DNA of 64,000 bases, taken from positions 3,302,633 to 3,366,632 of the forward strand of contig NZ_KB907784.1 in the NCBI RefSeq assembly GCF_000382185.1, read 5' to 3'. The notes below the pieces were generated by a model. That model made no database searches and had not been told where the DNA came from. It was given only the letters and a program-made list of their open reading frames with translations. Source of the DNA: Bordetella sp. FB-8 (GTDB taxonomy: Bacteria > Pseudomonadota > Gammaproteobacteria > Burkholderiales > Burkholderiaceae_B). Each line of letters opens with the position of its first letter. Position 1 is the stretch's first letter. Both the position numbers and the translations under genes were made by a program. Positions 1 through 42,424 of the stretch are shown piece by piece.

Positions 1-2208
1 CGCATTGACGCCCAGCAGGAAGGGGCCAATGGCGATATTGCCGCCCGCCGTGGCCTTGAGCAGGTTGTAGGCGATGTTGCCCGAGTCCACGTTGGGACAG
101 ACCAGCAGATTGGCCGTCCCCTTGAGCGTCGTGGACGGAAGGATGCGCGAGCGCAGCGCATCGTCGAGCGCGCAGTCGCCGTGCATTTCCCCGTCGATTT
201 CCAGATCGGGGGCCTGCGCGCGAATCAGCTCGAGGGCCTCGCGCATCTTTGCGCCCGAAGACCAGTTGCCGGTGCCAAAATTCGAGCGCGACAGCAGCGC
301 AATCTTGGGCACGAGATAGAGATTGGCCATCTTGCGCGCCGCGGCGATGGTGTATTCGGCAATCTGCTCGGCCGTGGGGTTGTCGTTGACATGGGTGTCG
401 ACCAGCGCGAGCGTGAGCTCGTTCAGCAGGACGATATTCATGGCCGCATAGGTCTTGGCGCCAGGCTTCATGCCTATCACTTCGTCGACAAAGCGCAAGT
501 GGTCATGGAAAGCACCGACCGCGCCGCACACCATGCCGTCGGCTTCGCCCAGGCGCACCATCACGGCGCCGATCAGCGTATTGCGACGGCGCATTTCGAC
601 GCGCGCCATTTCCTTGCTGATGCCGCGGCGGCACATCAGTTCCCAGTAGGTGGTCCAGTACTGGTGAAAGCGCTCGTCGTATTCGGGGTTGGTGACTTCG
701 ACATCCTCGCCCAGCTTCAGGCGCAGGCCGTATTTTTCGATGCGCGACAACAGCACCTGCGGACGGCCCACCAGGATGGGCCGAGCCAGCTTCTCATCGA
801 CGATCACCTGCACCGCGCGCAGCACGCGCTCGTCCTCGCCCTCGGTGAAGACGATGCGCGATTTGCCACCCTCGCGCGTGCAGCGCTTGGCTTCGCCGAA
901 TACCGGCTTCATGAACGTGCCGGAGTGATAGACGAACTGCTGCAGCTGCTGGACGTAGGCATCCAGATCAGCGATGGGCCGGGTGGCCACGCCGCCGTCC
1001 ATGGCGGCCTTGGCCACGGCCGGCGCAATGCGTGTGATCAGGCGCGGATCGAAAGGCTTGGGAATGAAGTATTCGGGACCGAAGGAAACGCCGTAGGTGC
1101 CGTAGGCTTCGGCCACCATTTCATTCTGCTCTTCCTGGGCCAGGCCGGCGATTGCGTAAACCGCCGCCTTTTCCATTTCGCGCGTGATGGTGATGGCCCC
1201 CACGTCCAGCGCGCCGCGGAAGATATAGGGAAAGCACAGCACATTATTGACCTGGTTCGGGTAGTCCGACCGGCCGGTGGCCATGACCACGTCGTCGCGC
1301 ACGGCGTGCGCGTCCTCGGGCAGGATCTCGGGCGACGGATTGGCCAGGGCCAGGATGAGCGGCTTGGCAGCCATTTTCTGGACCATCTCGGGTTTGAGCA
1401 CGCCGCCGGCCGACAGGCCCAGGAACACATCGGCGCCGTCGATCACTTCCGTGAGCTTGCGCAGCGGCGTCTCCTGCGCAAAGCGCGCCTTGTCTGGGTC
1501 CATCAAGGTAGTGCGGCCCTTGTAGACCACGCCTTCGATGTCGGTGGCCCAGATGTGCTCCATGGGCAGTCCCAGATCGACCAGCAGGTCCAGGCAGGCC
1601 AGCGCGGCCGCGCCGGCGCCGGAGGTGACGACCTTGACGTCCTTGATGCTCTTGCCCACGACCTTCAGGCCGTTGATGAAGGCGGCGCAAACAGTGATGG
1701 CGGTGCCGTGCTGGTCGTCATGAAAGACCGGGATCTTCATGCGCTCGCGCAGCTTGCGCTCGACGGTGAAGCACTCCGGCGCCTTGATGTCTTCGAGATT
1801 GATGCCGCCGAAGGTCGGCTCGAGCCCGGCGATGATGTCCACCAGCTTGTCCGGATCGGACTCGTTGATCTCGATGTCAAAGACATCGATGCCGGCGAAT
1901 TTCTTGAACAGGACCGCCTTGCCTTCCATGACCGGCTTGGAGGCCAGCGGGCCGATATTGCCCAGGCCCAGCACGGCGGTACCGTTGGTGATCACGCCCA
2001 CAAGGTTGCCGCGGGCGGTGTAGCGAAAGGCATCCATCGGGTTGGCCACGATTTCTTCGCAGGCCGCAGCCACGCCGGGCGTGTAGGCCAGGGCCAGGTC
2101 GCGCTGGGTGACGAGCGGCTTGCTGGCGTTGACCGACAGTTTTCCGGGCTTGGGAAACTCGTGGTAATGGAGCGCGGCCTTGCGGTTGTTTGACGTATCG
2201 GTGCTCAT
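1..2208 (-). CDS. maeB: NADP-dependent malic enzyme (malic + phosphotransacetylase-like), 3' end outside window
   Basis: Oxidative decarboxylation of malate to pyruvate with NADP, in the cytoplasm. Reading back from ATG 2208 gives 736 codons before the window edge, so only the C-terminal tip is missing. The N-terminal part has the family blocks [25 protein letters not shown] and [13 protein letters not shown], followed by the Rossmann region. The remainder, to the window edge, fits the phosphotransacetylase-like C-terminal domain of the large MaeB class (about 760 residues), which is regulatory in E. coli. The gene is divergent from a LysR regulator across a 125-bp AT-rich gap, so that regulator may control it (inference). 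The + strand of this gene carries a 670-codon open frame that is only a GC-bias shadow. Confidence 0.93.
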
Positions 2209-2304
2209 GATGGTGACCCAGGCGTGGAAAAGCAGTGGCAAACAGGAATAGGTCAACAATATTACGCTTCAAGACATAATCATGATATTTGGATTTAATA
2301 TGAT

Positions 2305-2328
2305 CCCATAAGCTTTTACTTATATGGG
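2305..2328. promoter_or_regulatory. Imperfect inverted repeat in maeB-lysR intergenic region
   Basis: CCCATAAG (2305-2312) faces CTTATATGGG (2319-2328) across a six-base spacer, only six bases before the LysR start codon. LysR-type proteins usually bind dyads between themselves and a divergent target, so this is a candidate autoregulatory site. The dyad is seen directly; the function is inferred. Confidence 0.35.
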
Positions 2329-2333
2329 CAATT

Positions 2334-3308
2334 ATGGGTTTCGATGCCGTCGACGTTGCTCATAAATTGAGCAACCGCCTCAAAATGCGCCATCTGGCGC
2401 TGCTTCTGCAGATACGCCAGCATGGTTCGCTGACCCGGGCTGCCGAGCGCATGGCCATCAGCCAGCCGGCGCTGACCAATACGCTCAACGACCTGGAGGG
2501 CATGTTCGGCGCGCCCTTGTTCGAGCGCTCGGCGCGCGGCATGGCGCCAACCCCGCTGGGCCGGGTGGTGCTGGATCACGCCCAGGCCATGGTGCAGGAC
2601 CTGGATCACCTGGTGCGCGACATGGACGCCGTGGCCGGCGGCCACACGGCGCATCTGCACGTGGGCGTGACGCCCTTCGTTCCCAGTCGCGTGCTGCCTG
2701 CCGCCTTGCAGCAGGCAGCACGCGACGGCAAACGACTCACCGTCACGGTGCATGGCGGGCCGGGCGAACTGCTGTTGTCGCAGTTGCACGATCACACACT
2801 GGACATCGTGGTGGGCCTTGCGTCGCCCGCGCTGGGCCAGGAAGGTCTGAGCTTTTATGCACTCTATAGCCAGCCGCCGCGCCTGATCGCCAATCGCCGG
2901 CTGGCCGCGCGGCTGACGCGGCTGCGTCTGGACTGGCGACGCCTGGCCGGACTGGACTGGATCATGAGTCCGTCCACCAGCTACCTGCGCGAGCAGGTGG
3001 CGGGACTGTTCGTCGAGGCCGGCCTGCCCGTGCCGCGGCCCGTCATGGAAAGCGACGCGGCGCGCCTGATCGGCGAAATGCTGGCCGCCAACGAACGGGC
3101 CGTGGCCATACTGCCCGCCGATATCGCCGAGGAACTCGTGCGCGGCGCAGGGGTGACCATCATCCCCTATTCTTTTGTCTGGAGCCTGCCGCCTATCGGC
3201 TTTTTCACACGCAACGCCGGCACGCCACGCATGGCGGAACAATGGTTCGCTGAAGCCTTGCGCAAGGCTAGAAGCGCCAAGCCGGTCGGGCAGGCCGCTG
3301 CGCCATAA
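2334..3308 (+). CDS. LysR-family transcriptional regulator
   Basis: A 324-residue DNA-binding regulator with the N-terminal winged helix-turn-helix at about residues 18-77 (RHLALLLQIRQHGSLTRAAE, then ISQPALTNTLNDLE and PLFERSARG). A LysR substrate-binding domain follows from about residue 100. The extended N-terminus before the helix-turn-helix resembles the GbpR/PcaQ subgroup, so the ATG at 2334 is kept; ATG 2385 is the alternative. It is divergent from maeB and may sense a C4-acid or aromatic catabolic signal, but the ligand cannot be read from sequence. Confidence 0.9.
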   Translation: MGFDAVDVAHKLSNRLKMRHLALLLQIRQHGSLTRAAERMAISQPALTNTLNDLEGMFGAPLFERSARGMAPTPLGRVVLDHAQAMVQDLDHLVRDMDAVAGGHTAHLHVGVTPFVPSRVLPAALQQAARDGKRLTVTVHGGPGELLLSQLHDHTLDIVVGLASPALGQEGLSFYALYSQPPRLIANRRLAARLTRLRLDWRRLAGLDWIMSPSTSYLREQVAGLFVEAGLPVPRPVMESDAARLIGEMLAANERAVAILPADIAEELVRGAGVTIIPYSFVWSLPPIGFFTRNAGTPRMAEQWFAEALRKARSAKPVGQAAAP

Positions 3309-7844: not shown

Positions 7845-10118
7845 ATGGCATTTCCCGGGCTCAAACACGCCTCTTCGGGCTTACTCGCCGCGCTACGCGC
7901 GGGGTCGCGTCTTGGGCTGCGCTCCGGTAGCGGCAAGCCTCATGCGGCAACGCATGCAGGCACTCCTTCGCTTCCTCCTATTGCCTCCCTGGCACCGCTG
8001 ACCGAACTCATCGGCAGCTACCTCTCCCCTTCGGATGTCGAGAAAGTCCGCGAAGCCTATCGCTTTGCTGACTCGGCGCACCTGGGGCAATTGCGCGCCA
8101 GCGGCGAACCTTATATATCCCACCCGATCGCCGTCACCGAAATCTGTGCCGGCTGGAAGCTCGATGCCAACGCACTGGCGGCGGCCCTATTGCATGACGT
8201 CATCGAAGACCAGGACGTCAGCAAGCAAGAGCTGGTCGAGAAGTTTGGCCCCGAAGTGGCCGAGCTGGTCGACGGTCTGACCAAACTTGAACGCTTGGAC
8301 TTCGCCTCCAAGGCGCAACAGCAGGCCGAGAGCTTTCGCAAGATGCTTCTGGCCATGGCGCGCGACGTTCGTGTCATTCTCATCAAGCTGGCTGATCGTC
8401 TGCACAATATGCGCACGCTGGACGTGGTCAGCGCCGAGAAGCGCCGCCGCGTGGCCCGCGAAACCCTCGATATCTATGCCCCCATCGCCCACCGTCTGGG
8501 CCTGAACGTCATATACCGCGAATTTCAGAATCTTTGTTTCGCGGCCATGTACCCCAATCGCTACCAGGTGCTGCATCGCGCCGTGCTGGCGGCTCGGGGC
8601 AACCGGCGCGAGGTCATCGGCAAGATCGAGGATGCCGTGCGCGCAGCCCTGCCGGCTGCCGGCATCGAGGCCGAAGTCAGCGGCCGAGAGAAAACGCTCT
8701 ACGGCATCTACCGCAAGATGCTGGAGCAAAAGAAGTCCTTCTCCGAGGTCCTGGACATCTACGGCTTTCGCGTCATCGTCCACACCCTGCCCGAGTGCTA
8801 CCTGGCCCTGGGTACGCTACACCAGCTTTATCGCCCGGTGCCCGGCAAATTCAAGGACTATATCGCCATCCCCAAGCTCAATGGCTATCAGTCCTTGCAC
8901 ACCACGCTGGTCGGCCCCTATGGCACACCCGTGGAATTCCAGTTCCGCACCCGCGACATGCACCACGTGGCCGAGGAAGGCGTAGCCTCGCACTGGCTGT
9001 ACAAGGAAAGCGACACCACGCTGAACGATCTGCAGAAACGCACGCACCAATGGCTGCAGTCATTGCTCGACATCCAGAGCCAGACAGGCGACTCGGGCGA
9101 ATTCCTCGATCACGTCAAGGTCGACCTGTTCCCCGACGCGGTTTATGTATTTACGCCGCGCGGCAAAATCATCTCTTTGCCGCGCGGCGCCACGCCGGTG
9201 GATCTGGCCTACGCCATCCACACCGACGTGGGCAACCAGGCCGTGGCATCCAAGATCAACGGCGAATTCGCACCGCTGCGCACCGAGTTGAGCAGCGGCG
9301 ATACCATCGAGATCATCACCTCGCCCGCCTCGCGTCCAAGCGCCCAGTGGCTCAATTATGTGCGCACCGGCCGCGCCCGCTCGGAAATCCGGCACTACCT
9401 GCGCACGGTCAAATATGAAGAATCGGTGGGTTTCGGCGAGCGGCTGCTGACGCAGGCGCTGGAAGAACTGCACCTGGCCCTGCCGGCGGCCGACGATCCC
9501 CAATGGGACAAGCTGGCCCGCAGCACGGGCGCCAGCTCGCGCGACGAAATCCTCTCGGACATAGGCCTGGGCAAGCGCTTGGCGGCCGTGGTGGCGCGCC
9601 GCTTCGCCCCGGAGAATGCCCTGATGGCCACCACCGCCGCGGCCATGGACGAGATGACCGCGGCCCGCGCCGCGCCCATCCTGATCCAGGGAAACGAAGG
9701 CCAGGCGGTGCAATTGGCGCCCTGCTGCGGCCCCTTGCCCGGCGATGCGATCGTCGCGGGCGTGAGGCTGGGCCAGGGGCTGGTGGTGCACACCGCGGAC
9801 TGCCCTGTCGCGCAGCGCGCCCAGGCGCGCGAGCCGGAGCGCTGGGTGCCCGTGGCCTGGGACAGCCAGGCCAGTAAGCATTTCTCGACCCGGCTGGACA
9901 TCGTCACGCGCAACGAGCGCGGCGTGCTGGGCCGGATCGCAGCCGAAGTTTCCGCTGCCGATTCCAATATCACCCATGTCACCATGCACGACGATGCCGT
10001 CTCCACGGTGCTCCTGCATCTGACGATTCAGGTCGATAGCCGCAAGCACCTGGCCCAGGTGATCCGCGCGGTGCGCCACGTCCCGCAGGTGCAGAAGATC
10101 GTGCGCGTCAAGGGCTGA
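7845..10118 (+). CDS. spoT: Bifunctional (p)ppGpp synthetase/hydrolase (SpoT/Rel)
   Basis: Makes and degrades the stringent-response alarmone. The 757 residues read in order: an HD hydrolase domain (HPIAV, then HDVIED at 117-122), a synthetase domain ([31 protein letters not shown]), a TGS domain ([21 protein letters not shown]), a zinc-finger/CC region ([10 protein letters not shown]) and a C-terminal ACT domain (about 685-757). The basic KFKD signature in the synthetase is the type found in bifunctional enzymes; RelA has an acidic EXDD there. GGGAGG six bases before ATG 7845 supports the start. The last 11 bases overlap the convergent chemoreceptor gene. Confidence 0.96.
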
Positions 10119-11697
10119 CGTCGGCGCTTATCAACTGCGCGACGGGCGTGTCGATCTTGAACGCCGCAACGGCCCGCCGCAACATCTGCGTCTGCTCATC
10201 GAGCGAACTGGCCGAGGCCGCCACCTGTTCTACCAATGCGGCATTGTGCTGGGTTACGTCGTCCATCTGGCGGATCGCCTGATTGACTTCGCCGATGCCG
10301 GTGCTTTGCAGCGTCGAGGCCTGCGAAATCTCATTCATGATCGATGTGACGCGTCGCACTGCGGCAACGGCCCCGGTCATGGTTTCGTCGGCCTTGTCCG
10401 TGAGGCGCGAACCGGCCCCAATGTGGGCTACCGATTGCTCGATCAACGACTTGATCTCCTTGGCAGCTCCCGCGCAGCGCTGCGCGAGCTGCCGGACTTC
10501 ACCCGCGACCACCGCGAATCCTCGCCCCTGCTCCCCGGCGCGGGCCGCCTCGACCGCGGCGTTCAAGGCCAGGATATTGGTCTGGAACGCGATGCTCTCG
10601 ATCGTGTTGATGATTTCGCCCATTTTATTCGAGCTGTCGGAAATCTCGGCCATCTTCCCAGCCACGTCGTTGACGACCTGCCCGCTGTGCGCAGCGGTGT
10701 TGGACGCATCGGTCGCAAGCTCTGATGCCTTGACGGCATTTTCCGCGTTCTGTGCGACGATCTGCGTCAGCGTGTCCAGGCTGGCGGCAGTCTGCTGCAA
10801 AGCTGCGGCCTGCTCCTCGGTGCGGCTGGACAGGTCGAAGTTGCCGGCCGCGATCTCTTGGGATGCAACCATGATCGTTTCGGTCGACCGCGTGATGTGC
10901 CCGATCGCGATCGCGAGCTGGTCGCGCATTTCACGCAGCGCGCACATCAGGCTGGACTGGTCGCCCGGCAGCAGCCTGATGGAGGTCGTGAGATCGCCCC
11001 GGGCGATCTGCCTGGCCAGCGCCGTTGCGTCCGACGGCTCCCCGCCGATCGAGCGCAGGACATTGCGCCCGACGCGGGCGGCGACCAGCGATGCCAGCCC
11101 ACCCAGCAATACGAGCAGGCCGGCCGAACGTTCAAGCGTTGCATAGAACTGGGCTTGAATATCGTCCATGTAGTCGCCCGCGATGAGATTCCAGTGCCAT
11201 GGCGCAAAGTGTTTGACATAGCTGATCTTTTCGCTCGGCACGGTTGCGCCGGGCTTGGGCCACCAGTAGTGTATGTAGCCCGAACCTCCTGCCGAATTAC
11301 CTGCATCGACGATTTCCTGGTAGAGCGCCCCGCCTTTGGCATCGCGGAATTTGCGCATATTCCTGCCGTTGAACTTCGGACTCAGCGGATTGTCGATCAG
11401 CACCTGGTCATCGCGCACGATCGACACATAGCCGGACGTGCCGTAGCGCTGCGCGTCGATGCGGGCAATGGCCTGCTTTTGCGCCTCTTCGGCCGACAGC
11501 TTGCCCGCCTCGGCCTGCTTCGCATAGTCGCCGACGAGGGACATCGACATATCCACGACATTGGCCAAGGCCGCACGCCGCGCCTGCATCGAGGCGTCGC
11601 GCGCCTCGATGGCATTGACCGCGGTCACGATCAGCAGCGCAAGCCAGCATAAAAGCATGGGCACCCACAGCATTTGCTTCAAAGTCAGCTTTTTCAC
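10108..11697 (-). CDS. Methyl-accepting chemotaxis protein with sCache-type sensor
   Basis: Inner-membrane chemoreceptor of 529 residues. TM1 is at about 8-28. A periplasmic single-Cache-like domain follows (about 35-185; [19 protein letters not shown] and [14 protein letters not shown] are typical), then TM2 (about 190-210), HAMP and the signalling domain with the hairpin tip [19 protein letters not shown]. There is no CheR-binding pentapeptide at the C-terminus. Its start overlaps the end of the 5-oxoprolinase gene by four bases (ATGA), so it is co-transcribed with an uptake and catabolic operon. I infer that it senses the same substrate. Confidence 0.9.
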
Positions 11698-34912: not shown

Positions 34913-35463
34913 GGTTCGGGATACCGGACCTCGAGTATGTCCAGTTCGTCCATGCCTGCCGGGGTGCGCAGCGTCACGGTGTCGCCTTCGCGGGCCTTCA
35001 GTAATGCACGCGCCACCGGCGAGATCCAGCTGATGCGGCCGGCCAGCGGCTCGGCTTCGTCAACCCCCACGATGGTCACCATGCGTTCCTGGCCGGCGCG
35101 ATCCATGTACAGCACCGTCGCACCGAAGAAAACCTGATCGCGGTTGGGCTGCAGGCCCGGGTCGACCACTTCGGCGATATCCAGGCGCTTGGTCAGAAAA
35201 CGCATACGCCGATCGATTTCGCGCAGGCGCTTCTTGCCGTATAGATAGTCGCCGTTCTCGGATCGGTCGCCATTGGATGCGGCCCAGGAGACGATCTGCA
35301 CCACCGAGGGCCGCTCCACATTCATCAGGTGCGCCAACTCTTCGCGCAACTGGGCATAGCCTTGCGGCGTGATGTAATTGCGCGAGCCCGATGGCAGCGC
35401 CTGGGCTTCGGGTACCTGGTCCTCGTCATCGCGATCGGACTCTTTGACAAATGCTTTGTTCAT
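34900..35463 (-). CDS. greB: Transcription elongation factor GreB
   Basis: Rescues backtracked RNA polymerase by stimulating transcript cleavage. The 187 residues include an N-terminal tail of about 28 residues rich in acidic side chains, longer than in E. coli GreB (158). The coiled-coil domain (YITPQGYAQLREELAHLMN, SENGDYLYGKKRLREIDRRM) keeps the acidic tip residues needed for cleavage. The C-terminal FKBP-like domain has VDEAEPLAGRISWISPVARA. It lies 22 bases after the PHP phosphoesterase gene. Confidence 0.94.
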   Translation of the reverse strand: MNKAFVKESDRDDEDQVPEAQALPSGSRNYITPQGYAQLREELAHLMNVERPSVVQIVSWAASNGDRSENGDYLYGKKRLREIDRRMRFLTKRLDIAEVVDPGLQPNRDQVFFGATVLYMDRAGQERMVTIVGVDEAEPLAGRISWISPVARALLKAREGDTVTLRTPAGMDELDILEVRYPEPRPE

Positions 35464-35485
35464 TTCTTACGTAAATCCGAGTACA

Positions 35486-36331
35486 TCAGAGCCAGTCGTG
35501 CCAGACCGGCCTCAGGTCCGGCGGCAGCATGGGCAACATGCCCAGGTCGACCCGGCTGTCGCGCTCGCTGTGGAAATCGGAGCCGCGCGAAGCCAGCAGC
35601 CCATAGCGGCGCGCCTCGCCGGCGTATTTGCGGGCATCCTCGGGACTGTGGCTGCCGGTGACCACTTCGACCCCCTCCCCGCCCAGCTGGATAAATTCGT
35701 CGAACAGCGCGTAGAACTGCGTCGGGGTGTATTTGTAGCGGCCCGGATGCGCCACGACGGCGCGTCCACCCGCACCGCGTATCCATGACACCGCCTGCTC
35801 CAGCGTGGCCCATTGCATGGGTTCGTGGCCCGGCCCGCCGTCGTGCAGGTATTTGTCAAACACGGTCTGCACATTGGAACAGTACCCCGCCGCGACCAAG
35901 TAGCGCGCAAAATGCGTGCGGCTGATGAGTTCGGGGTTGCCGACGAAGGTCAGCGCACCCTCGTAGGCGCCCGGTATGCCCAGCGCCGCCAGGCGTTCGC
36001 CCATGCGGCGTGCGCGCTCGCCGCGCCCGGCGCGGGTCGCGCGCAGTCCGTCGTTCAAGACCGCGTCGGCCGGATCGAAATTCAGGCCGACGATATGCAC
36101 CGTCTGACCGGCCCAAGTGACCGAGATCTCGACGCCGGTGATAAAGCGCATGCCCACCTCCCGCGCCGTCCGCCCAGCCTCGGCCTGGCCCCCGACTTCG
36201 TCATGATCGGTCAATGCCCACACATCCACACCGTTGTCGTGGGCGCGGCGAGCCACATCGGCCGGCAGCAGCTGGCCGTCGGACACAGTGGAATGACAAT
36301 GCAGGTCGATATTCAGTAGTGCGGTATCCAT
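35486..36331 (-). CDS. PHP-domain phosphoesterase (YciV/RNase AM-like)
   Basis: A 281-residue metal-dependent phosphoesterase of the polymerase-and-histidinol-phosphatase family. Metal ligands are visible in DLHCHSTVSDG (about 9-19), WALTDHDEVGG, GVEISVTW, AHPGRYK and the final SDFHSE. E. coli YciV degrades short 5'-phosphorylated RNAs and pAp-type nucleotides; the close match of motif order suggests the same role. It is co-oriented with greB and the alpha/beta hydrolase. Confidence 0.9.
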   Translation of the reverse strand: MDTALLNIDLHCHSTVSDGQLLPADVARRAHDNGVDVWALTDHDEVGGQAEAGRTAREVGMRFITGVEISVTWAGQTVHIVGLNFDPADAVLNDGLRATRAGRGERARRMGERLAALGIPGAYEGALTFVGNPELISRTHFARYLVAAGYCSNVQTVFDKYLHDGGPGHEPMQWATLEQAVSWIRGAGGRAVVAHPGRYKYTPTQFYALFDEFIQLGGEGVEVVTGSHSPEDARKYAGEARRYGLLASRGSDFHSERDSRVDLGMLPMLPPDLRPVWHDWL

Positions 36332-36343
36332 GATCGGCCTATT

Positions 36344-37285
36344 TTAAGAAGATCCGCGCAGAAAGGCCGCTATCGGTTCAATCTGCTCGGGCGTCATCAA
36401 GGTCGGAGCATGCCCCACGCCCGCGAATTCGATCGATGTCGACCGCGTATTGCGTGCTCGCATCTGGGCCAGCGTCGCGGCCGAGAGCAGGTCGGACTCG
36501 GCGCCGCGCACGATGAGCACCGGACAGTCCAGCGCGTCGTAGGCCTGCCAAAGTAGATTTTCGCCCGTAGCGTAGGCCTCGGCATTCTGTCCAGCCAGCG
36601 GCGCGGCCAGGCCCTGGTCGTAATGCTTGACCCACCATCCCTCGCGTTGGCGAAAGACTCTGCGCGTGAAGGTTTCCCACTGCTCGTCGGTATGCGGGCC
36701 GAACGTCGCGGCTGTCTGGCGCGTGGCCTGCACCGCTTCGGCCAGGGTGGAAAACGCCACAGGCTGTCCCACATAGGCCCCGATGCGCATCAAGGCCGAC
36801 ACTTCCAGCCGCGGACCGATGTCGTTGAGCACCATGCGATTAAACCGCAAGCCATGGCGGGGCAGATCCTGCGACCATGCCCCGGGGCGCGGATCGGCGG
36901 CACGCATCGCCGCCGTCATAGCGACGGTGCCGGCCAGACCCAGGCCGATCAAGCCGCCCATGGATGTGCCCACCCAGTCGAGGATTGCGGGACGCAGCCG
37001 CGCCAACAAGGTCGTCATGTCGGCGACATATTGCGGCACGGTATAGAAAGACGGGTTGAGCAGCCAGTCGGATGCGCCGCGGCCCACCACGTCGGGACAG
37101 ACCACACGAAAATCGCTGGACAGGTGCTGGGCCAGCTCGTCGAAATCGCGCCCGGCCCGCGTCAGGCCGTGCACACACAGCAGAACCCGGTCATTACCCG
37201 GGTCACCCCATTCCCAATAGGCCATGCGGTGCAGGCCCGCGGGGCTGGCGCAGGTGACGTAGTCCAGACGGGGTTGCGAGGGCAT
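36344..37285 (-). CDS. Alpha/beta-fold hydrolase
   Basis: A 313-residue cytoplasmic hydrolase. The oxyanion stretch is LCVHGLTRAGRDF, the nucleophile elbow VGTSMGGLIG, and the catalytic His is in FAGVGHAPTLM. The substrate is unknown. ATG 37285 has CGGAG about eight bases upstream. It is divergent from the TPR gene, and its promoter region contains the inverted copy of the repeat-junction sequence (37297-37318). Confidence 0.88.
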   Translation of the reverse strand: MPSQPRLDYVTCASPAGLHRMAYWEWGDPGNDRVLLCVHGLTRAGRDFDELAQHLSSDFRVVCPDVVGRGASDWLLNPSFYTVPQYVADMTTLLARLRPAILDWVGTSMGGLIGLGLAGTVAMTAAMRAADPRPGAWSQDLPRHGLRFNRMVLNDIGPRLEVSALMRIGAYVGQPVAFSTLAEAVQATRQTAATFGPHTDEQWETFTRRVFRQREGWWVKHYDQGLAAPLAGQNAEAYATGENLLWQAYDALDCPVLIVRGAESDLLSAATLAQMRARNTRSTSIEFAGVGHAPTLMTPEQIEPIAAFLRGSS

Positions 37286-37296
37286 GGAGCAGCTCC

Positions 37297-37318
37297 GGAT
37301 CGAATGCAGTGCGAGGCT
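37297..37318 (-). repeat. Inverted sequence matching the 341-bp repeat junction
   Basis: GGATCGAATGCA (37297-37308) is the exact reverse complement of the repeat-start sequence TGCATTCGATCC (37339-37350). GCGAGGCT (37311-37318) is the exact reverse complement of AGCCTCGC at the repeat end (38350-38357). Together they resemble a complementary splint across the tandem junction, with two bases in the middle where the junction has four. Confidence 0.75.
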
Positions 37319-37334
37319 TTCCATCTTACCCCCA

Positions 37335-37675
37335 GCAATGCATTCGATCCCGGTAGAATCGATCCGCATGAGCCTTCAGACCGCACTCGCACACCATCAG
37401 GCCGGCCGTCTGGCCGAGGCCATGGCCATCTACCAACAGATACTGGATACCACGCCCGACGATATCGAAGCCCTGCGTTGGCTGGGCAGCGCAGCCGGCC
37501 AACTGGGCAATACGCGTTTGGCCATCACGATCCTGTCCAGGGGTCATGCGCTGGCGCCGGACCATGTCGAGATCCTGCTGTCGCTGGCCACCATGCAGCG
37601 GGCGGCACAGGCCTACGAGCAGGCGCTCGCCTGCTATGAAAAGGCATTGGCGCTGCAGCCGAGGTCGAGCCTCGC
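37335..37675 (+). repeat. 341-bp tandem repeat, copy 1
   Basis: First of three perfect head-to-tail copies. It contains 33 bp of upstream region and the first 308 bp of the TPR gene. The period of 341 is not a multiple of three, so copies 1 and 2 cannot read through in frame. A two-base GC microhomology marks the break. Confidence 0.97.
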
Positions 37676-37697
37676 GCAATGCATTCGATCCCGGTAG
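37368..37697 (+). pseudogene. Truncated 5' duplicate of the TPR-ATP-grasp gene (first)
   Basis: An open frame of 109 codons from MSLQTALAHHQAG that is identical to the full protein for about 102 residues (three TPR-like units). It then runs across the repeat junction into QCIRSR and stops. It keeps the native start and the 33 bases before it, so a short TPR-only peptide could be made. It lacks the catalytic part. Confidence 0.85.
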
Positions 37698-38016
37698 AAT
37701 CGATCCGCATGAGCCTTCAGACCGCACTCGCACACCATCAGGCCGGCCGTCTGGCCGAGGCCATGGCCATCTACCAACAGATACTGGATACCACGCCCGA
37801 CGATATCGAAGCCCTGCGTTGGCTGGGCAGCGCAGCCGGCCAACTGGGCAATACGCGTTTGGCCATCACGATCCTGTCCAGGGGTCATGCGCTGGCGCCG
37901 GACCATGTCGAGATCCTGCTGTCGCTGGCCACCATGCAGCGGGCGGCACAGGCCTACGAGCAGGCGCTCGCCTGCTATGAAAAGGCATTGGCGCTGCAGC
38001 CGAGGTCGAGCCTCGC
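37676..38016 (+). repeat. 341-bp tandem repeat, copy 2
   Basis: Identical to copy 1 by base-by-base reading. The junction reads AGCCTCGC then GCAATGCATTCGATCC. Confidence 0.97.
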
Positions 38017-38038
38017 GCAATGCATTCGATCCCGGTAG
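37709..38038 (+). pseudogene. Truncated 5' duplicate of the TPR-ATP-grasp gene (second)
   Basis: Same 109-codon product as the first partial copy, produced by the second repeat unit. Its stop (TAG) lies 11 bases before the start codon of the full gene, so if translated it could affect initiation of the real product. Confidence 0.85.
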
Positions 38039-38357
38039 AATCGATCCGCATGAGCCTTCAGACCGCACTCGCACACCATCAGGCCGGCCGTCTGGCCGAG
38101 GCCATGGCCATCTACCAACAGATACTGGATACCACGCCCGACGATATCGAAGCCCTGCGTTGGCTGGGCAGCGCAGCCGGCCAACTGGGCAATACGCGTT
38201 TGGCCATCACGATCCTGTCCAGGGGTCATGCGCTGGCGCCGGACCATGTCGAGATCCTGCTGTCGCTGGCCACCATGCAGCGGGCGGCACAGGCCTACGA
38301 GCAGGCGCTCGCCTGCTATGAAAAGGCATTGGCGCTGCAGCCGAGGTCGAGCCTCGC
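38017..38357 (+). repeat. 341-bp tandem repeat, copy 3 (continuous with the full gene)
   Basis: The last copy continues without break into the rest of the TPR-ATP-grasp gene, so it is the functional 5' end. Confidence 0.97.
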
Positions 38358-39801
38358 GCTCTACGGCAAAGGCGCGACCTTGCAGCGCATGGGGCGCCCG
38401 CGGGAAGCCATGGCGGCCCTGCGCATGGCCGTGGCGCTGGCGCCCACCCACGCGCAGGCGCATTTGAACTTGGCCGACCTGCTGCGCGAAAGCGGCGATG
38501 CCGACCAAGTAGCCGAAGCGCACTACCGCCAGGCCATCGCAGCGGCTCCGGCGCTTGCGGCCGCCCACTATGGGCTGGGCATCGTGCTCTACCAGCAGGA
38601 TCGCTTGCAAGAAGCGGGCGACAGCTTTGCGCAGGCCGTGAACTGCCGTGAGGATTTCGTTCAGGCGCTCTACAACTTGGCACTGGTAAGCCGGCGCTTG
38701 CATCGCCCGACGGAAGCGATGGCCCATTACCGCCGCGTGCTGGAAATCGACCCCGAACACGTCCATGCACGCATCAACCTGTCCGCGCTGCTGCAGGAAG
38801 AAGGTTTCGAAGCCGAGGCACGCGAACAATGCGACCAGGCCTATCGGCGCCAGAACGTTTTCGTGAAAATCACGCCGGGCGCGGCCAAGACCGTGCTGAT
38901 CCTGTTCGACGTGGGCACCGGCAACATGAATCTGACGCACCTGTTCGACACGCGCACCACCAATTTGATCGACTGGATGATCGAATACGCGACGCCCGGG
39001 CAGCAAGCCCAGCTGCCGCCCTACGACCTGGTCTTCAACGCCATGGGCGACCCCGACCTGACCCGAAGCGGCGTGACGGCGCCGCTGGCCCTTTTCGTCG
39101 AACATTGCGCCCGGCCCGTACTGAACCCCCCCGACAAGGTCGCGCGCACGGCCCGGCATCGACTGCCGCAGTTGCTGGGCGATATTTCCAATCTGGCAAT
39201 CGCTCCGGTGCGGCGCTATGCCAGCGCGCAGGATTGGGACCCCGACCTTCAGGCCCAGCTACCGCTGCTGCTGCGCCCGATCCACACGCAAGGCGGCGTG
39301 GGAATGCAACGCATGACCACGCCGGCAGACCTGGCGCTGCAACGCGAACGGCAGCAGAGCCCGGTCTACGTCTTTCCCTTCGTCGACAGCCGTTGCGCCG
39401 ACGGCTGCTGGCGCAAGTACCGGGTCATTTTCATCGATAGACAACCCTATCCCTATCATCTGGGCATCTCGCCCAACTGGATGGTGCATTACTACACCGC
39501 GGACATGGGCGGCCATGCCTGGAAACTGGAAGAAGAAAAGCGATTTCTGCAGGATCCGCAAGCCGTGCTCGGGGCCGCGGCCATGCAGACGCTGCGCGAG
39601 ATCGGCGCACGCTTGGACCTCGATTACGCAGGCGTCGATTTTTCGCTGCTGCCGGACGGCCGTGTGCTGGTGTTCGAGGCCAACTCCACCATGCTGGTCC
39701 ATCCCGAGAATGCGGATGGGCCCTATGCGCACAAGAATGCCTATGTGCGGCGCATACTCGATTGCTTCGAGGCCATGCTGACCAAGCGAATTGCTTCCTA
39801 A
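38050..39801 (+). CDS. TPR-repeat protein with C-terminal ATP-grasp-like domain
   Basis: A 583-residue two-part protein. Residues 1 to about 270 form a TPR solenoid of roughly seven units (AEAMAIYQQILDTTPDDIEA, EQALACYEKALALQPRSSLA, AMAHYRRVLEIDPEHVHA). Residues about 290-583 look like a RimK/glutathione-synthetase ATP-grasp: LLLRPIHTQGGVG for the ATP loop, KYRVIFIDRQPYPYHL, and the metal site YAGVDFSLLPDGRVLVFEAN. The substrate is unknown; ATP-grasp enzymes usually join a carboxylate to an amine. There is no signal peptide. A TAGAAT box lies eight bases upstream of the start, with little ribosome site. The 3' end overlaps convergent comEC by four bases. Confidence 0.85.
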   Translation: MSLQTALAHHQAGRLAEAMAIYQQILDTTPDDIEALRWLGSAAGQLGNTRLAITILSRGHALAPDHVEILLSLATMQRAAQAYEQALACYEKALALQPRSSLALYGKGATLQRMGRPREAMAALRMAVALAPTHAQAHLNLADLLRESGDADQVAEAHYRQAIAAAPALAAAHYGLGIVLYQQDRLQEAGDSFAQAVNCREDFVQALYNLALVSRRLHRPTEAMAHYRRVLEIDPEHVHARINLSALLQEEGFEAEAREQCDQAYRRQNVFVKITPGAAKTVLILFDVGTGNMNLTHLFDTRTTNLIDWMIEYATPGQQAQLPPYDLVFNAMGDPDLTRSGVTAPLALFVEHCARPVLNPPDKVARTARHRLPQLLGDISNLAIAPVRRYASAQDWDPDLQAQLPLLLRPIHTQGGVGMQRMTTPADLALQRERQQSPVYVFPFVDSRCADGCWRKYRVIFIDRQPYPYHLGISPNWMVHYYTADMGGHAWKLEEEKRFLQDPQAVLGAAAMQTLREIGARLDLDYAGVDFSLLPDGRVLVFEANSTMLVHPENADGPYAHKNAYVRRILDCFEAMLTKRIAS

Positions 39802-42182
39802 TTCGCCGAAGCTGCCGTGTCGGAGCCGCGGTTCCAGGGTAGTACCGCATGCCAGTAGCGCCTAGCCGTCTCCCGTTGCGCATTCACCAAGAGTCCTTGT
39901 CCGCTTGATTCGATGGTCACGGCGCCCTGCAGGTCCGTGCGCCATACCGAGGCTCCCCAAGCCTGCCAACGTGAGACGACTTGCCCCGAGGGATGGCGAA
40001 AGCGGTTCAGGTAGCCAGCCTGAACAATGACCTGAGCCGGCCCGACAGCGCGGACCAATGCCGTCCCCGACGACGTGGACGAACCGTGATGCGGCGCCGC
40101 CACGACATCGATGGGCGGCAAGACCGCCGCATAGCGGGTCTCCTGGGCCACGCCCGCGTCGCCAGGCAGCAAAATGGTGTGATGCCGGCCCTGCACCACG
40201 AGCACGCAGCTGCGGGCATTGGTGTCGATCCTGCCGATTTTGTCTTGCGGGTGCGCTGCGGCCTGCTTCTGCGGATGCACGAAACGCAAGAGCACGCCGT
40301 CGCTCTCCCACGCCATGCCGGCTTCGCATTCGCGCCGGCTCCCAGGCAAACGCACCGCGTCCAGTTCGGGTTCGGACGATCGGGCTGCTTGGCGCCTCAA
40401 ATGCGCGGCCAGATCGAACGAGGCATAAGAAACGTCTACCGGAAATGCCTGCAATATGCTGCGCAACCCACCCGCATGATCCTGATCCGCATGCGATACG
40501 ACCAGGGTATCAATGCGGCGCGCGCCGCGCGCATGCAAATAAGGTGCCAGCACCCTTTCGCCGGCATCGCCGCCGCCGTAATAGCGCGGACCGGCGTCAT
40601 AGAGCAATGTGCGAGTGGCCGTCTCAATAATAAGCGCACTGCCCTGCCCAACATCCAGCGCGATCATGCGCCAGTCGCCGGGTTGCGGCCTGTCGGGCCG
40701 CCACAGCAGCAGCGGCAGCATGCCCAGCCAGCCCATAAAACGCCAGCGGCCGCCACGGCCTTGTAAGGCAATGGCCACGCCCAGGAACGCAGGCAGCAGC
40801 CATGGCCAGGCTGCGGCAGCCACGTAGGCCGCGGCCCATTCGCTGCGACCTATCCACCCCACGGGCTGCATGACCGCGGCGAACAGGCCATGGCCGAGCC
40901 AACCCGCGGCCCACGCCAGACTCCGTCCACCCGGCATCACCGACAGGACGCCACAAAGCAAGGCCAGCGGGGTCACCAGCGCACCCACGATCGGAACGGC
41001 AACGGCATTGGCCAGCGGCGATCCCAGCGATACCTGGTGCACAAGAAAGGCCAGCAAGGGCGCAAGCCCCAGCGTGATCGCGCCCTGCGTCCTGCAGAAA
41101 CCAGCAAGCACGCGGCGCGCGCGTTCGCGCCAGGTCAAGGCGGGCTCAGCGTGCGAGACGGCCAGGCGCATCAATATCGCCACCGCGCCGAAAGACAGCC
41201 AGAACCCCGCCGACAGCATGGCCCAGGGATCGAGCGCCAAAACGCAGGCACCTGCAAGCAACAACAGGCGCGATGCGCTCAGTGGCAAGCGCGCAAGCCC
41301 GGCGGCCGCCAGGCAAGCCAGCATGAAGAAGGTGCGACGCGCGGGCACGCCCCAGCCGGCCAGAAGGCAGTACCCCAAGGCCACGCACAAAGCGGCCGAA
41401 CAGGCCGCCAGCTGCGCAGGCAAATATTCCGCCAGCCCTACGCCACGCCAGCGCCAGCGCCGCCATAGAAAGGACGCGAGCAAGCCGCCCATGGCCGCCA
41501 CCAGCGTAATATGAGCCCCGCTGATCGCGACTAAGTGCGAGATGCCGCTGCGATTGAAGACCTGCCAATCCTCCCTTGCTATGCCAGCCTGGTCGCCAAT
41601 GGTCAGGGCGATCAGCACCGGCCCGTAGCGCATGCCTTCCAGGGCGGCGCGCATGCCCGCGCGGATACGGTAGCGCAGCGTTTCGATGCCCACGGCCGCC
41701 GTCGCCCAGGGCTCGTCGGCGATCTTCTGCGGATTGCCGCGCACCGTACCCTCTGCCCGTATCCCTGCGGCGAAGCTGCGCAATTCCATGTCGGCCGCAT
41801 AAGGGTTGGACGGGCCGTAGGGGCGGCGCAGAACCAAGGCCATGCGCCAGTCGCTGCCGGGTATGACCTCGGGCAACGCGGCGGCGGCGCCGGGACGCGC
41901 GTGCCAGGTGACGCGGATGATGCGGGGTATGCCCGGCGGCCGGGACTTGCCCACTTCGGCCATGAAGCGGCGGCCGCCGTCATCGTCTTGCGGCATCGTC
42001 AGCACACGCACCTGCAGGCGTACTATCTGGTCGTGATACGCATCGGCCAGTGCATCGGCAAGACGCAGACGACCTTGCAGGCATGTATCGAGCGAACCGG
42101 CCAGCAGACCCGCCAGCAGTAGACAGACCAACCGTATCGATTGCGCGCGCGATGTGCGCTGCAGGGCGGCCAGTGCCGCCAC
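39798..42182 (-). CDS. comEC: DNA internalization channel protein ComEC/Rec2
   Basis: A polytopic membrane protein of the competence family that carries single-stranded DNA across the inner membrane. The GTG start at 42182 gives 794 residues: an N-terminal OB-like periplasmic domain, the competence membrane core (SGISHLVAISGAHITLVAAM, GWGVPARRTFFMLA, DPWAMLSAGFWLSFGAVAIL) and a C-terminal metallo-beta-lactamase domain (ALDVGQGSALII, VSHADQDHAGGL, LLPGDAG, APHHGSSTSSG). The frame is open and coding-like up to about 42300, and the best ribosome site (GGAGG, 42293-42297) precedes an in-frame ATC at 42287. The true N-terminus is therefore probably 35 residues longer. Confidence 0.9.
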   Translation of the reverse strand: MAALAALQRTSRAQSIRLVCLLLAGLLAGSLDTCLQGRLRLADALADAYHDQIVRLQVRVLTMPQDDDGGRRFMAEVGKSRPPGIPRIIRVTWHARPGAAAALPEVIPGSDWRMALVLRRPYGPSNPYAADMELRSFAAGIRAEGTVRGNPQKIADEPWATAAVGIETLRYRIRAGMRAALEGMRYGPVLIALTIGDQAGIAREDWQVFNRSGISHLVAISGAHITLVAAMGGLLASFLWRRWRWRGVGLAEYLPAQLAACSAALCVALGYCLLAGWGVPARRTFFMLACLAAAGLARLPLSASRLLLLAGACVLALDPWAMLSAGFWLSFGAVAILMRLAVSHAEPALTWRERARRVLAGFCRTQGAITLGLAPLLAFLVHQVSLGSPLANAVAVPIVGALVTPLALLCGVLSVMPGGRSLAWAAGWLGHGLFAAVMQPVGWIGRSEWAAAYVAAAAWPWLLPAFLGVAIALQGRGGRWRFMGWLGMLPLLLWRPDRPQPGDWRMIALDVGQGSALIIETATRTLLYDAGPRYYGGGDAGERVLAPYLHARGARRIDTLVVSHADQDHAGGLRSILQAFPVDVSYASFDLAAHLRRQAARSSEPELDAVRLPGSRRECEAGMAWESDGVLLRFVHPQKQAAAHPQDKIGRIDTNARSCVLVVQGRHHTILLPGDAGVAQETRYAAVLPPIDVVAAPHHGSSTSSGTALVRAVGPAQVIVQAGYLNRFRHPSGQVVSRWQAWGASVWRTDLQGAVTIESSGQGLLVNAQRETARRYWHAVLPWNRGSDTAASAN

Positions 42183-42424
42183 CGCGCACGCCAGCGCGGC
42201 AAGACCCGGCGTTCCGGGCAGAGCGGCCAGCGTGTGAGGCAGTCCGATGCCGGCGATGAACGAAAGAAGGAAGATGCGGCCAGAGATGGGAACCTCCGCA
42301 AAGGCTCCAGCCTAGCCGTCGAGCAAGCCGTCCGCCAGACCGGAACGACGCGCTTTTGTCACGTAGCCCATGCAGGACATACCTGCGCGCCCCGGGTAAA
42401 AGACGAGGCGATGCGAGAGGCGAT

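Follow-up and report, generated by a model that had tools for sequence, protein, structure and literature searches.

Some tandem duplications of the pneumococcal capsule genes (the type 3 locus, cap8E and tts) lie within a gene and interrupt it. The pneumococcal patAB duplication is a large genomic duplication in which only 2 bp (TA) are precisely conserved between the ends (PMC4432121). In Mycobacterium tuberculosis, the promoter repeats of dop, lpdA and cysG consist of units of 54-58 bp, two of them at leaderless promoters, and their copy number varies across strains and within populations at 1e-2 to 1e-3 per chromosome; the dop repeat is present in three copies in Erdman, and the four-copy lpdA repeat is reported with a 12.5-fold increase in expression over one copy (PMC12817950). 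Related accounts are PMC3161906 and PMC8406281. For the array described here, or for a similar 5′-end triplication, no report was found in the open-access papers searched, among the matches listed.

The array lies in Bordetella sp. FB-8, within the stretch of 64,000 nucleotides that was analysed (hereafter the window, whose first letter is position 1). TRF returned period-341 identity from 37335 to 38359 with 3.0 copies, 100% matches and 0% indels, and direct comparison of the three 341-bp units counted from 37335 revealed zero mismatches. The exact period-341 run amounts to 1025 bp (3 × 341 + 2), in which the 2 extra bases, GC, are common to both ends of the array. A reading of this DNA made from the sequence alone had described three identical copies spaced exactly 341 bp, each with 33 bp before the start and 308 bp of coding sequence; the first statement is correct to the base by both methods, and the coordinates and arithmetic of the second were confirmed, the ATG being counted in the coding part. 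The array is a real feature of the deposited sequence, with the following elements:

37335 to 37675, plus strand: unit 1 (341 bp; 33 bp upstream DNA and 308 coding bases from the ATG at 37368), by TRF and direct comparison
37676 to 38016, plus strand: unit 2 (341 bp, identical; ATG at 37709), by TRF and direct comparison
38017 to 38357, plus strand: unit 3 (341 bp, identical; ATG at 38050; period-341 identity continues 2 bp further), by TRF and direct comparison
37354 to 37359, plus strand: TAGAAT, a -10-like box 8 nt before the ATG, found again at 37695-37700 and 38036-38041
37368 to 37697, plus strand: unit 1 ORF, 109 aa, three TPR motifs and a short out-of-frame tail, with its stop TAG inside the TAGAAT of unit 2
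37709 to 38038, plus strand: unit 2 ORF, 109 aa, identical to the unit 1 ORF, by ORF reading
38050 to 39801, plus strand: intact gene, 583 aa, with TPR helices within residues 3-267 and a RimK-like ATP-grasp domain at about 280-583, by ORF reading and structure prediction
36344 to 37285, minus strand: divergent alpha/beta hydrolase gene, for which an earlier start (ATG at 37324) is possible, by ORF reading and comparison with a relative

Identical copies in head-to-tail order, as found here, are what a tandem duplication leaves behind, and the novel joint also carries a short shared sequence, the 2-bp GC, which is weak evidence alone and could be chance. In-frame expansion of the TPR region, which calls for units of one or more whole 34-residue (102-bp) TPRs without a shift of frame, was rejected on length and frame, since 341 bp is not divisible by 3 and the unit includes 33 non-coding bp.

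Reading the frames to their stops (TAG at 37695-37697 for copy 1, TAG at 38036-38038 for copy 2 and TAA at 39799-39801 for copy 3) bore out the earlier statement that copies 1 and 2 encode 109 residues each and copy 3 continues into the full gene. Because the full ORF is intact in copy 3, a change of copy number would give no frame-based on/off switch, though it may alter expression. An existing protein call of 119 aa (P0001) fits a longer ORF (37679-38038) that contains the unit 2 ORF. Structure prediction of the intact gene product gave a TPR superhelix of 16 helices fused to a RimK-like ATP-grasp domain, in agreement with the earlier naming of the gene. In the fold search with the whole protein, the 50 matches listed per program were every one TPR, so that the C-terminal part was barely probed; an ATP-grasp match appeared once this part was folded alone, and the predicted C-terminal domain shares the RimK-like ATP-grasp fold throughout. 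The PDB sequence search with alignment matched 397 sequences, the best 60 of which align best in the TPR part (query residues ≤269), and the 24 NCBIfam families matched for the gene all scored under their curated cut-offs. The likeness to RimK-type ATP-grasp ligases, which concerns the gene and not the array, is at 15% identity, and the protein here differs by the TPR superhelix fused on.

The unit breaks at codon 103, past the predicted TPR helices of residues 3-96 and at the start of helix 101-113, so that the 109-aa fragment keeps three whole TPRs, with Pfam support as well. This boundary would suit a reading in which the products of units 1 and 2 matter in themselves, as a three-TPR mini-protein competing with the TPR domain of the full enzyme. 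However, the product is putative and known from sequence alone, its tail is frame-shifted, the fragment was found from this genome only (19 scored candidates), and the fortunate boundary may be chance; we regard such a role as exceedingly improbable.

The closest relative with readable DNA is represented by an uncultured Bordetella contig (L034, contig 543 of genome G013) with 80-84% identity to the window. Gene order is alike in the two, running from a presumed PHP-domain gene through the alpha/beta hydrolase and TPR-ATP-grasp genes to what we take to be a ComEC-like gene, the labels of these outer neighbours being assigned from sequence. As far as 37675, the end of unit 1, the DNA upstream of the divergent hydrolase is native. 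By blastn, window 35015-37677 matched L034 2-2666 (83.6%) and window 38032-42363 matched L034 2339-6705 (81.2%), with units 1 and 3 aligned within these two long flanking matches. The middle copy (window 37691-38018) fell again on L034 2339-2666 (80.0%), a segment already matched by the flanking alignments, indicating one unit in L034 against three in the window. A look at the same locus in sister genomes, which the sequence-only reading had called for, thus gave a single copy in the one draft relative examined. The G013 draft, in about 550 contigs, is 77% complete, and short reads, if used, could have collapsed an array, but a collapsed array hidden in this draft is unlikely.

Wider searches were consistent with this picture. 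TRF detected no period above 27 in 18 related loci (L005 and L034-L050), and an ortholog at E ≤ 1e-120 was present in 2 of 268 family genomes, one of them the genome studied here. The search with the full protein scored the 7,999 candidates with the most words in common and yielded 1,074 homologs, of which the best 120 were listed. With the 109-aa query, 3 proteins matched among 19 scored candidates, the sole near-identical one being the genome's own 119-aa call and the other two being weaker matches named as partial proteins; within the limits of that search, no array was shown in a relative. The searches made for relatives found no second strain of this species.

The comparison with L034 also constrains the age of the array. 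At four-fold sites of the gene, the window and L034 differ at 71 of 261 positions (Jukes-Cantor 0.338), and if two extra copies had existed without constraint since the split, they would be expected to carry about 115 changes. None was observed between the copies, which places the array, or its last homogenisation, at younger than about 2.6% of the split time. This bound holds if the copies evolve neutrally and undergo no gene conversion; had they been homogenised, a greater age would be masked. Of the three possibilities put forward by the sequence-only reading, a very recent event has the best support.

The left end of the array coincides with one arm of an inverted repeat, as read directly from the DNA:

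37297 to 37312, no strand: left arm of the inverted repeat, present once, outside the array on its left side
37335 to 37350, no strand: right arm, 15/16 complementary; the array starts at its first base, and units 2 and 3 each contain it again

The 16-bp arms pair at 15 of 16 positions around a loop of 22, and as single-stranded DNA the hairpin 37297-37350 gave z = -5.2 on both strands, against z = -0.83 for the counterpart in the relative. At 68 of 63,997 window positions a 3-bp zone touches the end of an arm of equal grade, and at 204 of 63,997 when the grade is relaxed to 14 of 16; both figures overstate the case since the hairpin was picked as a feature after being seen. The arm core TGCATTCGATCC, a 12-mer, has 4 occurrences in the readable genome, all at this locus, and when the unit was searched against the whole genome, with scores computed for 40 of 86 first-look candidates, the matches at E ≤ 0.001 numbered 3, namely the three copies themselves. 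A dispersed repeat or mobile element is unsupported, both searches matching only this locus in the readable genome. A splint model, in which the right end of the array was set by complementarity to the left flank, was rejected, with 215 of 2,964 alternative right ends as good; further counts as good were 34 of 422 with GC at the join and 704 of 8,322 window-wide. The inverted repeat joins the possible first codons of the hydrolase to the upstream region of the TPR gene, and besides seeding the array it could, judging from this position, serve both divergent genes as an operator.

The array lies inside a single contig of 4,078,617 bp in a 4.08-Mb genome that is 99.09% complete. No other exact tandem array was found in the window (period 30-3000, exact run at least 0.9 of the period), nor elsewhere on the chromosome in 39 stretches of 20 kb (780,000 called bases; period 30-3000), so that a chance origin of the repeat is no concern. 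Ten stretches of genome G008 contained one exact array and ten of genome G015 contained none. Exact arrays are uncommon yet known, and they do not abound in the portion of this assembly that was sampled. Other repeats were seen in passing. In the same genome, at about 3.89 Mb (L072), a 521-bp exact stretch at 8568-9088 and 10787-11307, 2,219 bp apart, is common to the ATP-grasp part of two neighbouring paralogs of the TPR-ATP-grasp gene, which suggests recent gene conversion or duplication. A second locus of this genome (L078, 16384-16736) has exact runs of 56 and 77 bp, both spaced 216 bp, forming an imperfect tandem repeat. The exact array of genome G008 (L095, 5783-7880) consists of two identical head-to-tail copies of an element of 1,049 bp, presumably IS481-like, whose ORF resembles a transposase.

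The genome setting bears on the possibility, raised by the sequence-only reading, that the array is an assembly artefact, a single-copy region falsely expanded, perhaps at the hairpin. The perfect identity of the copies, the single copy in L034 and the strong hairpin at the left end are all compatible with such an error, and PMC6868369 names tandem repeats among the causes of assembly error, but PMC12817950 argues that such repeats would be expected to collapse through errors rather than to expand. Moreover, the single contig is of a kind usual with long reads, which were probably used here, arrays of 1 kb are well within long-read span, and the 780 kb sampled gave no other exact array. An artefact is therefore disfavoured, and we judge it unlikely.

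The TAGAAT box shares 5 of 6 bases with the sigma-70 -10 consensus and lies inside a 13-bp block that is identical in L034. Its distance to the ATG would put the transcription start at or next to the ATG, giving putative near-leaderless translation. A protein 89% identical to the gene product (P0005) starts with MHSTPVES, which at the protein level would fit a comparable sequence upstream. The array has its left end 19 bp ahead of TAGAAT, at the expected -35 position, and because it cuts there, units 2 and 3 carry other sequence at this place and are without the native -35 region. The conserved TAGAAT may belong to a working promoter; the scan for complete sigma-70-like sites found 0 (mean 0.3 in shuffles).

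From these signals one could argue for a selected array of variable copy number, in which every unit would bring an extra TAGAAT and a near-leaderless start, and unequal exchange would tune expression of the ATP-grasp enzyme. The conservation of the -10-like box in L034, the placement of the start for leaderless reading and the expression effect reported for the copy-number-variable M. tuberculosis promoter repeats (PMC12817950) fit this proposal, whereas the scan result, the missing -35 region of units 2 and 3, the single copy in L034 and the length of the unit, 341 bp and mostly coding, argue against it. A contingency locus would be expected to keep its repeat in related species; the single relative examined at the locus has one copy, and the fragment came from this genome only (19 scored candidates). 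The contingency-like selected array of the sequence-only reading thus gained no positive evidence, and such an array appears improbable to us.

We consider, with a probability of roughly three in four, that the promoter-proximal 5′ end of the TPR-ATP-grasp gene was duplicated in tandem recently, apparently in this lineage alone, and now stands in three identical copies. The effect of the array on expression is probably none or modest, and the array is probably near-neutral. Given the strong hairpin at the left end and the arm core confined to the locus, a reasonable first step would be replication slippage or template switching at a stalled fork, aided by the hairpin 37297-37350. Exact repeat homology permits RecA-type unequal exchange, and the 341 bp of identity would then have allowed it to generate the third copy, with loss equally easy. 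Since each unit brings its own ATG and -10-like box, the gene is left unbroken by the array. The array adds two short ORFs whose TAG stop is the first half of the following TAGAAT, and as this stop lies 11 nt before the next ATG, readthrough and re-initiation could still feed the full-length protein. Neither this overlap of stop and box, nor the conserved TAGAAT placed for near-leaderless translation, nor the inverted-repeat arm at the left end had been mentioned in the sequence-only reading. Several points count against this best explanation: the link to the hairpin was noticed after the fact, the splint model for the right end failed, the single-copy state comes from the DNA of one close relative, a fragmented draft, homogenisation could conceal a greater age, and confirmed spontaneous duplication junctions in Salmonella are reported with microhomology of >10 bp (PMC3411829), against 2 bp here.

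A more elaborate scheme, which we hold to be very unlikely, would have the inverted repeat keep making and removing 341-bp units, so that copy number governs how much ATP-grasp enzyme and how much competing TPR fragment are made while the gene is never broken. Each unit would then contribute a -10 box and a near-leaderless start together with a three-TPR mini-protein able to fold, a combination to which we give the same very low weight.

If real, the recent duplication favoured here offers a clean snapshot of the early amplification of a gene 5′ end: gene order is undisturbed on either side, one relative has a single copy, and the hairpin that may have started the process occurs in the window but not in that relative. 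With such a case one could ask whether arrays of this kind linger as neutral debris or affect expression. If the array is an artefact, it warns against calling short TPR "genes", the fragment being already listed as a protein in the collection.

Among the known systems, the capsule-gene duplications differ from the array, whose third copy retains a start of its own and leaves the gene whole. The M. tuberculosis promoter repeats resemble the array in architecture, with tandem copies just upstream of a start, whereas the unit here contains 308 coding bases and is known from one assembled sequence. The array is like the spontaneous short-junction bacterial duplications, of which patAB is an example, in its head-to-tail direct copies and very short shared join, and it differs from patAB (PMC4432121) in being 341 bp in unit length, inside the 5′ end of one gene and already in three copies.
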